From assembly GCA_025062415.1 (NCBI GenBank), contig JANXAH010000144.1:1-38105 (forward strand): DNA of 38,105 nt, given 5' to 3'. The notes beneath the pieces were generated by a model that did not search any database, had not been told where the DNA came from, and worked only from the letters and a program-made list of their open reading frames with translations. A program made the position numbers and the translations under genes. Below, piece after piece: positions 1 through 26,050 of this stretch. Source of the stretch: Anaerolineae bacterium (GTDB lineage: Bacteria > Chloroflexota > Anaerolineae > B4-G1 > DUEL01). Positions within the stretch are counted from its first letter, which is position 1, and each line of letters opens with the position of its first letter.

Positions 1-1772
1 CGCGGCGGAGCGAAAGCCGGGCGAATGACCAGCCAGGGGGTGAGGAGGGAGAGGGAGCAAAGGAGCAGGAGGAGCAGGGGAGCGCCGACTGAAGTCGGCC
101 TCGGTTGGCCTTCGGCCGAAGGTCGGCCTTCGCCGACCACTGCCGCGGCGCAGGATGAATCCCCGTCGGTGCCGACCGAAGTCGGCCTCGGTTGGCCTTC
201 GGCCGAAGGTCGGTCTTCGCCGACCGCTGGCGTGGCGCAGGATGAATCCCTGTCGGCGCCGACTGAAGTCGGCATCAGCAGGCCTTCGGCCGAAGGTCGG
301 CCTTCGCCGACCTGGCTGAGAGCGTCGGCAGAGGTGGATGGCTGATCAGCGCCGAAGGGGATTGACCTCGCCGGGGCCGCCAACCCCTGGTTGGCCTTCA
401 CCGACGCTGGGTTTTGACGTCGGCGCAGGCCGACGCTGGGCACTTTGTGCCCAGGGAAGGCTGATTTCCAATCAGCGCCAAGAGACCAGCCACAGGTCAT
501 CAGGAGGGCCCAGGCGGAAAGGGCGGGGAAGAGGAGCCGCCCGTGGGGGGCCTCCACCTGTCGCATCCACTGAAGGAGGGCCAGGAAGACCAGCCCACAC
601 CAGGCCGCAGCCAGAAGCAGAATCCCGGGGTGGCCTGGAATCCGTCGCCGGAGCAACCCCACCGTCCAGCCAAGAAGAGAGAGAAGGATCAGGCCCCCCA
701 GCAGCGCGTAGACCCAGGCCGGATACTCCACGTGCCCCCAGCCGAAAGCTCCCCAGAAGGAGCGATAGAGGCGGGGCATCTCCCACAGGAGGACCATCAA
801 CGGCGCGGGCTGGGACCGGCCCCAGGGGGTCTGAATGTGGCGGCTAATACCCAGGGGGTCATTGTACAGAAGAAGGTTGCGAATGTACCACCAGCCCCCG
901 ACCGCGAAGGCGAGGCCCAGGGCCAGAATTCCTGCGGGAATCTTCCGGCGCATCGGAGTCGGAGCGAAAAGGAGGGCCACAAGGGCCAGAGGGACCAGGA
1001 GGAGTTCGCTGGTCTTGGTGAGCGCGGCCAGGCCCAGGGCCAGCCCCAGAAGAAAAGAACGGCGGAGGTCTGCGCCGCACCGGAGGACGCGCGCTATCGC
1101 CCAGAGGGCAAAAGTGGCGGTCGCAGCGGCCGCGCTGTCGTTGTTGACGACGCCAGAGATGAAGAGGAACTGGGGATGGAAGGCGACGAGGGCCGCCGCC
1201 CAGAGAGGGATAAGGCCGGTTTGGTCCTGGCACAGGGAAGGCCGGCTTTCCGTCGTCGCCGGGGACCCGACAGTCTCACGGGCCAGGGCCCAGGTCCCCA
1301 GAACCGTCAGCAAGCCAAAGAGGAGGGAGACCAGACGGGTGGCATGGACGGCCAGGGCCGCGCCCCGCCAGGGGAACCGCTCCCGATCGGTATGGATGAG
1401 CATGTTCTTGTTGTCGTTGACGGTCCCTCCGGCCTGGTAGCCGAACTGGGGATTGTGCCACATCAGTTCGGAAAGGTCGTCGTCGGGGAAGAAGCGGCGA
1501 ACGGCGGCGGCGGCCAGGTAGTAGAGGGGCGGTTGGGCGGCCTCCTGGTACGCGCCGCTCCGGTCCTCGTCCAGGGGAGGCAAGCCCTTCCCCTGCGCCA
1601 CCCACCGAACATAGGCGTCGTGCCAGACCTCGTCGGGGGCCTCGTAGAGGGGGGTGACAGCGCTGTAGAGAAAACCGAGAAAGAGAAAAAGAAGCAGCAC
1701 GCAGGGGAGCGCCAGTGGGTGCAGGAAAAGCGCAAACAAACGCCGGTGGAATCCGGATGGCAAGGGGCTCAC
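1..1772 (-). CDS. Multi-TM membrane glycosyltransferase (PMT/DUF2142-like), 3' end outside window
   Basis: Absent from the ORF track because no stop lies in the window. I read the frame from GTG at 1772 to the left edge without a stop (over 585 residues). GTG overlaps the upstream TGA (GTGA), with GGAGGT just before it. The N-terminal half has hydrophobic segments and the motifs EAPDEVWH and QEAAQPPLYY, typical of lipid-linked-sugar membrane glycosyltransferases; their acidic loop residues act outside the membrane. About 430 residues in, after GRLLFPALSAWALL, roughly 130 codons consist of palindromic repeats (three hairpins, then 2.6 copies of a 29-codon unit). A hydrophobic segment ending LVIRPAFAPP then resumes as expected for the family. 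It is probably cotranscribed with the two upstream genes. The acceptor is unknown. The family is fairly sure; whether the repeat-bearing protein is functional is not known. Confidence 0.8.
   Translation of the reverse strand, partial: MSPLPSGFHRRLFALFLHPLALPCVLLLFLFLGFLYSAVTPLYEAPDEVWHDAYVRWVAQGKGLPPLDEDRSGAYQEAAQPPLYYLAAAAVRRFFPDDDLSELMWHNPQFGYQAGGTVNDNKNMLIHTDRERFPWRGAALAVHATRLVSLLFGLLTVLGTWALARETVGSPATTESRPSLCQDQTGLIPLWAAALVAFHPQFLFISGVVNNDSAAAATATFALWAIARVLRCGADLRRSFLLGLALGLAALTKTSELLLVPLALVALLFAPTPMRRKIPAGILALGLAFAVGGWWYIRNLLLYNDPLGISRHIQTPWGRSQPAPLMVLLWEMPRLYRSFWGAFGWGHVEYPAWVYALLGGLILLSLLGWTVGLLRRRIPGHPGILLLAAAWCGLVFLALLQWMRQVEAPHGRLLFPALSAWALLMTCGWSLGADWKSAFPGHKVPSVGLRRRQNPASVKANQGLAAPARSIPFGADQPSTSADALSQVGEGRPSAEGLLMPTSVGADRDSSCATPAVGEDRPSAEGQPRPTSVGTDGDSSCAAAVVGEGRPSAEGQPRPTSVGAPLLLLLLCSLSLLTPWLVIRPAFAPP
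84..312. repeat. 87-bp tandem repeat, about 2.6 copies, inside a CDS
   Basis: Units begin at 84, 171 and 258 with GCCGAC(T/C)GAAGTCGGC and are spaced exactly 87 bp (29 codons). Each contains nested palindromes: GCCGAC..GTCGGC, CTTCGGCCGAAG and GGTCGGC..GCCGACC. Copies 1 and 2 are nearly identical, and copy 3 diverges after its midpoint. The array lies in the open minus-strand frame of the glycosyltransferase and adds an imperfect 29-residue repeat rich in Gly, Pro, Ser and Arg. A GGTCGGCG..CGCCGACC stem of the same type forms the terminator between the two hsp20 genes. Confidence 0.9.
418..476. repeat. Three back-to-back hairpins within the glycosyltransferase CDS
   Basis: Three perfect stems lie almost end to end. 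CGTCGGC/GCCGACG is at 418-435, CTGGGCAC/GTGCCCAG with loop TTT is at 436-454, and GCTGATT/AATCAGC with loop TCC is at 460-476. All are read through by the minus-strand glycosyltransferase frame. Together with the 87-bp tandem repeat they form a composite palindromic block of about 390 bp. Confidence 0.85.
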
Positions 1773-4057
1773 TTTACCTCCACCTCTCCCAGGACGACGA
1801 AGTCTCCCGCAGGCGCGCCGCCTACAATCACCGGAAGCCGGGTCCCGTCGGTCAGCCGGTAGAGGCCGGCGCGAAGTTCGTAGGTGCCCGGCGGAAGCCC
1901 CGGCGGGAGAAAGATGCCGTGCCGGTCTGCCACCACCGTCCCGACGGGCCAAAAGGTCGTCGGAGAAAGGTCGCCACGGGGCTCGGAATCGTGCTGGGCA
2001 ACGAGGTTTCCCCCGCTCTCCATCAGGTGGACGAAGACTTTGTGCCGTTCCGGGAGAGGGGCCTCCGTCTCCCAGAAAAGGGTGACCGGGACGACCTCCC
2101 CCGGTTGGAAGGGGCCCCGTCCCCAGACGTATCCCCGAAGTCGGACCGGGCCAATCTGAACGTTCTCCGGTCGGACGACGCGAGGATCGGCCAGGTCGGG
2201 GGTTTCGGCGACGCCGTAGAGAGCCAGACGGACGCGGCCGTACCACCGGGCAGGGCCCGGATAGGCCCGGTCGGCCAGGAGGTTCTCCAGCCACCGCTGG
2301 GGGTCTGCCTCCAGGTCCCCCCAGTAGAGGACGAAGAGCCGTTGATGGGAGGCCAGGATGGGCTCCAGCCACGGGCCAACGTCCTCCGGGCGGGGGTGGT
2401 AGATGAAGGGGTAGATGGGGAGGTCGCCCTTGTAGTAGTAGGTGAAGACCTCCCACTGATTGGGCGCGTTCAGCAGGATCGCGTCACCGGGGCGGGCCGC
2501 CGAGGCGATGTCGGCAGCGATCCCGCGGTAGTTGTCTCGCGCGTAGGCGGGGTTGAAGTAGAGGTTGCGGAGGGAGGGCAAGAAGGCTTGAGCGGTAAGG
2601 AAGTAGAGCGTGAGCGCATAAAAGGCGAGGGTGTACAGCGTGGAAAGGCGGAAGGACTGGAAGGCACGGGCCAGGTTGTGGATTCCTGCGGCCAGCAGGA
2701 TGTGGAAGGCCGGGAGGACGGCCAGCAGGAACTTAAGGTAGGCCGGTTTGTAGAGGTCAAAGGCGAAGATGAGGACGAGGGGGACCAGTAGCCAGAGGGC
2801 CAGGGTCGCCGCAGCGAAGAGTGCTGATAGGGTGTTGGGGGACCCCTCCCCCCGCCCCTCAACCTTGGCCTTTTGGTCTGTAGCCCTGCTGCACGGGCCT
2901 CCAGCCGGCTCCGCCGCCCTAAAAATATTTACTTTTTGTTCTTTTCGGCCCGCCGGAGGCGACCTTTGGATATTTTCAAACTGCCCACCTGAAAAAGGCC
3001 AAACTTCAGGGGTGTTTTCTCCGAAGGCGGGCCCTTCTACGGGGGGAGTGGGGGACGCAGAGGTTCTGCACCGGGCGCCGACCATCGCCAATGCCCCCGT
3101 CAGAGGCCACAGGCCGAGGGCCAGCAAAACGCCCACGCTGTACAGGACAGGGCGAATCTGGTCCGCCTCCAGGGTAATGCCCACCGCCAGGGCGCGGAAA
3201 ATGTCCAGCAGGGCCGCCCCCAGGGTGTAGTTCCGCCCGGCGGAGGGCCAGCCCGTCGCCCGAAGGGCGGTGGGAAGCCAGGGGAGGTACAGGAGGACGA
3301 TGGACGCCTGCAGGGCGAGCCACTGGAGGGCCTCACCCCACCCCCGACGGCTCCGCCGCCACCCCTTCCCCTCTCCTGACCGAAGGTCAGAAGAGGGGAG
3401 GGAGATGGGGGAGAGGTGAGGCCACAGCCACCATCCCAGGACCAACAGGTTGTGAGCGAGCAGGACGAATGGAAAGGAGTAGTGGGTATAAAGACCGGCG
3501 GCGGCGACGAGGGCGTAAAGGACTCCCGCCCGCAGACGGGGGCGAGAGAGGAAACTCCAAAGGAGATCAGTGGAGGCGACGGCGATCAGGCCCAGCAGGC
3601 CATACATCCGCGCCTCCTGAGAGTAGTAAACGGCCAGAGGAGAGAGGGCAGCCAGGAGCGCGGCCACCAGCCCGACTTCGGCTCCAAACATCCGCCGCCC
3701 CAGCCGTCCGGTCAGCGCGACGGCCAGCAGGCCAATGTAGACGGAGAGGGCGCGGACAGCGAACTCGCTATCCCCTGTGGGGATGCGCCAGAAGTGGAGC
3801 AGGAGGTAGTAGCCCGGGGGGTGGATATCTCCTCGGGCCGCGGCGATAACCAGAGGGATGGGCCGCTCCGCTGCGCGGACGGCGTTCCCCTCGTCGTTCC
3901 AGAAGGACTGGGCATCCAGCCGGTAGAAGCGCAGACCGGCGGCCAGCAGAAGGATCAGGAGGAGCAGGACGCGGACGCGCGCGGACAGGCCCAAAGCGTT
4001 GAACCGCAAAAGGCGCAAGGGAAGATGGAGGCAAAGTCCGCGTTTCTCCGCGTTCAT
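1769..4057 (-). CDS. PMT/ArnT-type (GT39/GT83-like) membrane glycosyltransferase
   Basis: A 762-residue integral membrane protein. The N-terminal TM segment is followed by FWNDEGNAVRAAE and GDIHPPGYYLLLHFWR, the acidic and HPP-YY loop signatures of dolichyl- or undecaprenyl-phosphate-sugar transferases. Multiple TM segments and a soluble C-terminal beta-rich domain follow. The role is inferred: transfer of a sugar from a polyprenyl carrier to a glycan, lipid or protein outside the membrane. The start has AGGGGA 6 nt upstream and lies 13 nt after the DUF885 stop; the stop overlaps the next gene's GTG. Two stretches look inserted: residues about 211-243 (palindromic, LPSS..GEG type) and about 325-395 (with an A/T-rich patch and short inverted repeat). 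The N-terminal NAEKRGLCLHLPLRLLRFNA also comes from repeat-like DNA. Confidence 0.85.
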   Translation of the reverse strand: MNAEKRGLCLHLPLRLLRFNALGLSARVRVLLLLILLLAAGLRFYRLDAQSFWNDEGNAVRAAERPIPLVIAAARGDIHPPGYYLLLHFWRIPTGDSEFAVRALSVYIGLLAVALTGRLGRRMFGAEVGLVAALLAALSPLAVYYSQEARMYGLLGLIAVASTDLLWSFLSRPRLRAGVLYALVAAAGLYTHYSFPFVLLAHNLLVLGWWLWPHLSPISLPSSDLRSGEGKGWRRSRRGWGEALQWLALQASIVLLYLPWLPTALRATGWPSAGRNYTLGAALLDIFRALAVGITLEADQIRPVLYSVGVLLALGLWPLTGALAMVGARCRTSASPTPPVEGPAFGENTPEVWPFSGGQFENIQRSPPAGRKEQKVNIFRAAEPAGGPCSRATDQKAKVEGRGEGSPNTLSALFAAATLALWLLVPLVLIFAFDLYKPAYLKFLLAVLPAFHILLAAGIHNLARAFQSFRLSTLYTLAFYALTLYFLTAQAFLPSLRNLYFNPAYARDNYRGIAADIASAARPGDAILLNAPNQWEVFTYYYKGDLPIYPFIYHPRPEDVGPWLEPILASHQRLFVLYWGDLEADPQRWLENLLADRAYPGPARWYGRVRLALYGVAETPDLADPRVVRPENVQIGPVRLRGYVWGRGPFQPGEVVPVTLFWETEAPLPERHKVFVHLMESGGNLVAQHDSEPRGDLSPTTFWPVGTVVADRHGIFLPPGLPPGTYELRAGLYRLTDGTRLPVIVGGAPAGDFVVLGEVEVK
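2947..3033. repeat. Inverted-repeat-bounded segment inside glycosyltransferase CDS
   Basis: Perfect 8-bp inverted ends GGCCCGCC and GGCGGGCC bound 87 bp. The segment and its left flank hold A/T-rich runs (for example AAAAATATTTACTTTTTG near 2921) that contrast with the GC-rich gene. It lies in frame at codons about 342-371, between hydrophobic segments, so it looks like an insertion tolerated in a loop. Confidence 0.5.
3329..3423. repeat. Palindromic element with 9-bp inverted ends inside glycosyltransferase CDS
   Basis: GGCCTCACC at the left and GGTGAGGCC at the right are perfect inverted repeats. The centre is CTGACC-GAA-GGTCAG, flanked by CCCCTCT and AGAGGGG, so most of the 95 bp can fold as one cruciform. 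It is in frame and adds a charged Ser/Pro/Gly/Arg loop at codons about 212-243. A related C/T-rich sequence is at the start of the 8639-10420 gene. Confidence 0.75.
4001..4036 (-). repeat. CTTTG..CTTTTGCGGTT dispersed sequence at a gene start
   Basis: Read on the minus strand this is CTTTGCCTCC...GCGCCTTTTGCGGTTC. It resembles CTTTGTGTCTTGGTGGTTA at 5784-5802 and CTTTGTGTCC..CTTTTGTGGTTTT at 34895-34923. Here it lies within the first 20 codons of the glycosyltransferase. The similarity was judged by eye. Confidence 0.4.
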
Positions 4058-25972: not shown

Positions 25973-26050
25973 CGGGGCGTAGCGCAGTCCGGTTAGCGCG
26001 CAGCGTTCGGGACGCTGAGGTCCGGGGTCCAAATCCCCGCGCCCCGACCA
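25973..26050 (+). tRNA. tRNA-Pro (anticodon CGG)
   Basis: A full cloverleaf can be drawn. The acceptor is CGGGGCG/CGCCCCG, and the D arm is GCGC...GCGC with GG in the loop. The anticodon stem CAGCG/CGCTG encloses loop TTCGGGA, so the anticodon is CGG, with G at 37 as in all proline tRNAs. The T stem is CGGGG/CCCCG, and CCA is encoded. It decodes CCG. The T loop reads TCCAAAT: position 55, almost always T (pseudouridine), is C. No sibling tRNA follows. Confidence 0.95.

Follow-up and report, generated by a model that had tools for sequence, protein, structure and literature searches.

We found that a genus-restricted, REP/MITE-like palindromic repeat, here called element A, very probably (a probability of roughly 0.83 by our estimate) landed in a GT-C glycosyltransferase gene of an Anaerolineae bacterium and is tolerated there as an in-frame, translated linker within a predicted cytoplasmic loop. 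The stretch of DNA analysed (hereafter the window; 38,105 nt) makes up contig C127 in full; the draft genome to which it belongs totals 2.70 Mb in 264 contigs, and the named relatives closest to it are Chloroflexota MAGs that carry the labels Anaerolineae, Thermoflexales or Thermoflexus. The gene and its insert lie at the start of the window:

3–1772, minus strand: GT-C membrane glycosyltransferase gene (PMT_2/DUF2142), GTG start at 1772; residues 1–590 lie in the window
480–539, minus strand: conserved stretch including TM10, directly before the insert
81–479, minus strand: in-frame palindromic-repeat insert, 399 nt (133 codons), without counterpart in 26 aligned relatives
3–80, minus strand: TM11 with the conserved RPAFAPP motif, directly after the insert
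Contig C155 (L012:2–991): rest of the same glycosyltransferase, sharing a 141-bp identical overlap with the window end

The protein encoded at 3–1772 matches two Pfam families, both above the cut-off (PF13231, E=3.4e-7; PF09913, E=9.2e-9), and Foldseek pairs it with ArnT, OST and PMT at a probability of 1.00; these matches identify the product as a GT-C glycosyltransferase with a predicted ArnT-like fold. The minus-strand frame from GTG 1772 meets no stop across the array and hairpins and stays open up to the contig end, as the initial annotation had described, and the edges given there (84–476) are refined here to 81–479. Base 1 of the window truncates the gene; the window's terminal 141 bases recur as the opening of C155, whose frame completes the protein up to its stop, and the remainder encoded there resembles the C-terminal domain of the relatives' proteins. 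The join is well supported because the 83 bases past the array occur, within this genome, in these two contigs only. Through this overlap the gene looks complete, and its ~870 codons hold no further stop or frameshift. An open frame by itself is weak evidence, since element A is GC-rich and most of its frames are stop-free (42–97% of frames are open among non-genic copies). The strong evidence for an in-frame insertion, at the level of sequence, is that homologous sequence resumes past the insert. There the frame re-enters the conserved last helix of the family (PLLLLLLCSLSLLTPWLVIRPAFAPP), in which P579 and I583 are nearly invariant among 27 aligned sequences, and the gene then continues on C155, bearing out the earlier proposal that a hydrophobic segment typical of the family resumes at this point.

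The insert combines a tandem array with further hairpins:

84–344, no strand assigned: tandem array, three units of exactly 87 bp (TRF)
84–138, plus strand: element A copy 1, 55 bp, two hairpins (stem of 6 with a 4-nt loop; stem of 7 with a 4-nt loop)
171–225, plus strand: element A copy 2, 96% identical to copy 1
258–312, plus strand: element A copy 3, 93% identical to copy 1
380–394, no strand assigned: hairpin CCAACC-CCT-GGTTGG (folding)
418–435, no strand assigned: hairpin with a 7-bp stem and 4-nt loop (folding)
436–454, no strand assigned: hairpin with an 8-bp stem and 3-nt loop (folding)
460–476, no strand assigned: hairpin GCTGATT-TCC-AATCAGC, giving ADWKSA when read on the minus strand; related stems occur among element A copies

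TRF describes the array with a period of 87, 2.7 copies and a score of 385, and units 2 and 3 are 92% and 67% identical to unit 1. The hairpins of the insert fold with z = -4.3, none of 200 shuffles being equally stable, and the stretch at 410–470 has many similar copies across loci of the genus. As to the terminal inverted repeats and target-site duplication of a MITE, GGCGCT stands at both insert edges, where it also fits the repeat's own unit boundary, and the loops of the orthologues have diverged too far for a target to be recognised. An Rfam scan of the window matched a tRNA alone, so no known RNA family or intron accounts for the insert. That tRNA gene (RF00005) lies at 25973–26047 of the window.

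The inserted segment is absent from all 26 aligned relatives, including orthologues outside the genus. Relatives in the genus carry short or unrelated sequence at the TM10–TM11 loop, and those of other genera have none of the insert. The initial annotation had put about 130 added residues between two membrane helices, close to the 133 codons that we place between TM10 and TM11. AlphaFold pLDDT is 33–47 in the insert vs >90 across most of the core, with confident helices (411–438 and 563–587) on either side, and GRAVY is -0.54 in the insert vs 0.53 in the rest of the protein. The model thus predicts a disordered linker of 133 residues between the two last membrane helices. With a predicted topology of 11 helices and an N-terminus starting in the cytoplasm, we infer that the TM10–TM11 insert would lie on the cytoplasmic side, away from the extracytoplasmic active site. 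All inserts of at least 10 residues in the aligned family fall in the TM2–3, 4–5, 6–7, 8–9 or 10–11 loops, which this predicted topology places in the cytoplasm, or at the N-terminus. The orthologue in G003 and G005 has the same repeat peptide (VGEGRPSAEGPGRATSVG) in frame, but in another predicted cytoplasmic loop; over 192 nt, the insert common to these two genomes differs by 2 non-synonymous changes and no synonymous one, too little divergence for the comparison to inform on selection.

The array could instead be a functional domain or tunable linker, altering activity, partners or membrane placement, with its copy number under selection. Steps of 29 codons preserve the frame, the same loops are used repeatedly in relatives, and G003 and G005, two species-level genomes, retain their shared insert, all of which would suit such a role. 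We nevertheless consider it improbable: the insert is predicted to be disordered, at that position other species show either no insert or an unrelated one, and no peptide is conserved apart from the repeat itself.

Element A is an interspersed repeat family of this genus. Searching with the array gave 103 matches in its own genome; the element is present in 6/7 genomes of the genus and in 0/6 genomes from five other genera of the family. A profile search of the fetched stretches from the genus returned 351 hits, nearly all non-coding. About 9 of the 337 scored copies are genic, vs 81% coding in the sampled sequence, with coding called by a simple Markov model trained on the sampled loci rather than by a standard gene caller. 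The genome search and this count agree with the initial view that such repeats are normally intergenic. Of the genic copies, 5 came from the automatic tally; we added the three units of the window and the copy on C96 manually, as their downstream flank is cut by, or lies near, a contig end. The closest relative of the window array is intergenic (L011; G000 C244, 4923–5493), belongs to the same family with 87- or 88-bp units and lies at a contig end. One candidate genic copy (L106) was ruled out, as it sits upstream of the gene start.

Stem positions change in compensating fashion among 242 distinct copies (CG153/TA63, CG175/TA60 and TA212/AT21), and pairing at these positions is kept in 220, 237 and 234 of them vs 180, 193 and 195 expected under independence, which marks the hairpins as a conserved feature of element A. 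These figures come from the full 242-copy alignment, the trimmed-hairpin version being underpowered. Such covariation, along with the stability of the hairpins, is what might be seen if they acted in the mRNA, for example through ribosome pausing or slower decay, and the peptide were a by-product. That account has a small chance of being right: the covariation belongs to a mostly intergenic family, and nothing ties retention of the hairpins to a role in the window gene.

Element A lies within genes in four cases: the window gene, C16, C96 and the G003/G005 orthologue. The C16 gene, in the same genome, encodes a PTPS-related membrane protein in which two units 126 bp apart contribute 92 residues; its insertion site is unoccupied in G001, in G002 and in the genomes from other genera, and the counterparts of its peptide in intergenic arrays (C114 and C237) carry stops. 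On C96, a single copy falls close to a contig end, within an ORF for a membrane protein. The genic copies are read in differing frames and in both orientations. Spacing between copies is a multiple of three in 3/3 genic instances, with intergenic remainders of 59/44/42, a pattern that is only suggestive given just four independent genic events.

Since most element A frames are stop-free by chance, the insertion might have inactivated the enzyme, with the frame still open only because the event is recent; other GT-C paralogues in the genome would make the loss tolerable. The prospect of such a decaying gene is slim, given that no other stop or frameshift interrupts the gene, the family residues are intact, the core is modelled at high confidence and the comparable insert of G003 and G005 persists in two species-level genomes. 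Least probable is a fusion of the gene to an intergenic array by short-read assembly: the contig does end 80 bases past the insert, and many draft contigs end in such repeats (32/129 blocks lie <=150 bp from a contig end), but both gene–array junctions are inside a single contig, the window copy is the sole full-length match (the long matches that rank next reach 89% identity), the 83 unique bases after the array run exactly into C155, the frame is preserved over both junctions and the array, and the separate assemblies of relatives behave likewise.

We therefore favour insertion of a repeat that the protein tolerates. Element A, single or as a short array, would have entered the codons between TM10 and TM11, and we propose that it was retained because its length is a multiple of three, its frame is stop-free and the cytoplasmic loop is variable. 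The array would then have expanded or contracted by 87-bp steps, which never disrupt the frame since each is 29 whole codons, and the enzyme would tolerate the resulting hydrophilic, disordered linker. On a broader scale, REP/MITE-like elements would land genome-wide and most genic insertions would be lost, the survivors being those in frame where extra disordered residues do little harm. The simplest reading is that the insert is near-neutral. We infer translation of the repeat in the cell, tolerance of function and the mechanism of mobilisation.

The phenomenon is known from Rickettsia palindromic elements (RPEs) and intragenic REPs; the element A family and its long array were not found in the open-licence papers covered. 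RPEs are in-frame palindromes in genes that add tens of residues at tolerated places, and nearly half of those first reported lay in ORFs (PMC10969869). The initial annotation had likened the insert to RPEs. As a description the analogy holds, both being palindromic repeats in frame within protein-coding genes, whereas membership does not: element A, unlike RPEs, has no single conserved coding frame. It also comes from another phylum and a host that is not intracellular, has ~3% of its copies in genes, and forms a tandem array in the window where an RPE is a single element. Intragenic GTAG and CGTC REPs have been surveyed with an emphasis on DNA and RNA metabolism genes; their clusters encode 43–82 aa, and tolerance in linkers and loops was already proposed (PMC3733652). 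Like REPs, element A consists of short hairpins, in dimers or clusters, that are mainly intergenic and occasionally in frame in genes, but the window insert is larger (133 aa) and the hosts here are mainly membrane glycosyltransferases. No GTAG stands 5' of the hairpins in the window units or the copy consensus. A CGTC REP has a CGTC tag, an 8–9 bp stem opening with A/T pairs, a 4–5 nt loop and a CCA tail (PMC3733652), whereas element A stems are 6–7 bp and open with G-C pairs; that tag alone is ambiguous, as the window unit does have a CGTC shortly upstream of its first hairpin. We found neither a RAYT gene flanked by element A nor a transposase for it, as the genome's one Y1_Tnp match (C186) is an ORF beside GTAG-tagged hairpins that differ from element A. 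Coxiella QMITE1 and QMITE2, which are likewise small and interspersed palindromes and can overlap ORFs or alter them, are 150–400 bp with direct repeats (PMC5896051), vs 55 bp for element A, and are set apart by description. Because element A fails the tested REP tags and the single-frame feature of RPEs, we place it apart from the REP super-families and RPEs.

The Y1 (RAYT-like) transposase ORF occupies ~210–860 of L161 (G000 C186), with the GTAG-tagged hairpins on both sides (GTAGC ACAGGC TGTTA GCCTGT).

A repeat of another family lies in the neighbouring gene:

1769–4057, minus strand: neighbouring PMT_2 glycosyltransferase gene, carrying a different in-frame palindromic repeat
3331–3420, minus strand: element B, a 90-bp palindromic repeat in frame in that gene, with coding flanks (85 + 174 bits)

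Element B is unrelated to the repeat of the window insert and has 38 non-coding BLAST hits across 25 loci of the genus; further PMT_2 proteins also hold repeat-like inserts. Element B and the other in-frame repeats of relatives go beyond the initial annotation, as do the two hairpins per unit and the predicted cytoplasmic loop. Cytoplasmic loops of GT-C proteins in this genus might be recurrent landing sites that turn several unrelated palindromic families into protein, a tentative idea that we hold with more doubt than belief; if true, one enzyme family would regularly gain new protein sequence from the spread of non-coding repeats.

Several other observations concern repeats in coding sequence. 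The neighbouring gene also encodes a long hydrophilic stretch between membrane segments (2834–3064), with no repeats of the stretch in the sampled loci. In two GT-C paralogues, in L061 (G005) and L062 (G003), the same last loop contains GHWSFRHWSF as a tandem peptide repeat, and the DNA encoding it has a further match in L107, to a tandem repeat that is non-coding. In several GT-C proteins (L051–L054, L057, L060, L064 and L066), either the N-terminus or the TM6-7 loop is made up of palindromic repeats of the DTKTR type (CACCAAGACACGAAG...CTTCGTGTCTTGGTG). Outside this family, both in G006, a GH31 glycoside hydrolase (L119:1951–4479) has repeat-derived residues 111–133 and 160–184, in or next to its N-terminal domain, and HypF (L126:239–2602) has repeat-derived residues 93–111 between its acylphosphatase domain and zinc fingers.

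Together, these findings extend the phenomenon of repeats in bacterial genes to another phylum, with a translated array longer than the surveyed clusters of 43–82 aa (PMC3733652), and link it to one structural setting, the predicted non-catalytic side of membrane glycosyltransferases. They also advise caution, as repeat peptides in metagenome proteins can be genuine inserts rather than annotation errors. With both empty and filled sites among its relatives, this genus provides a natural setting for testing how selfish, non-coding repeats turn into protein sequence.
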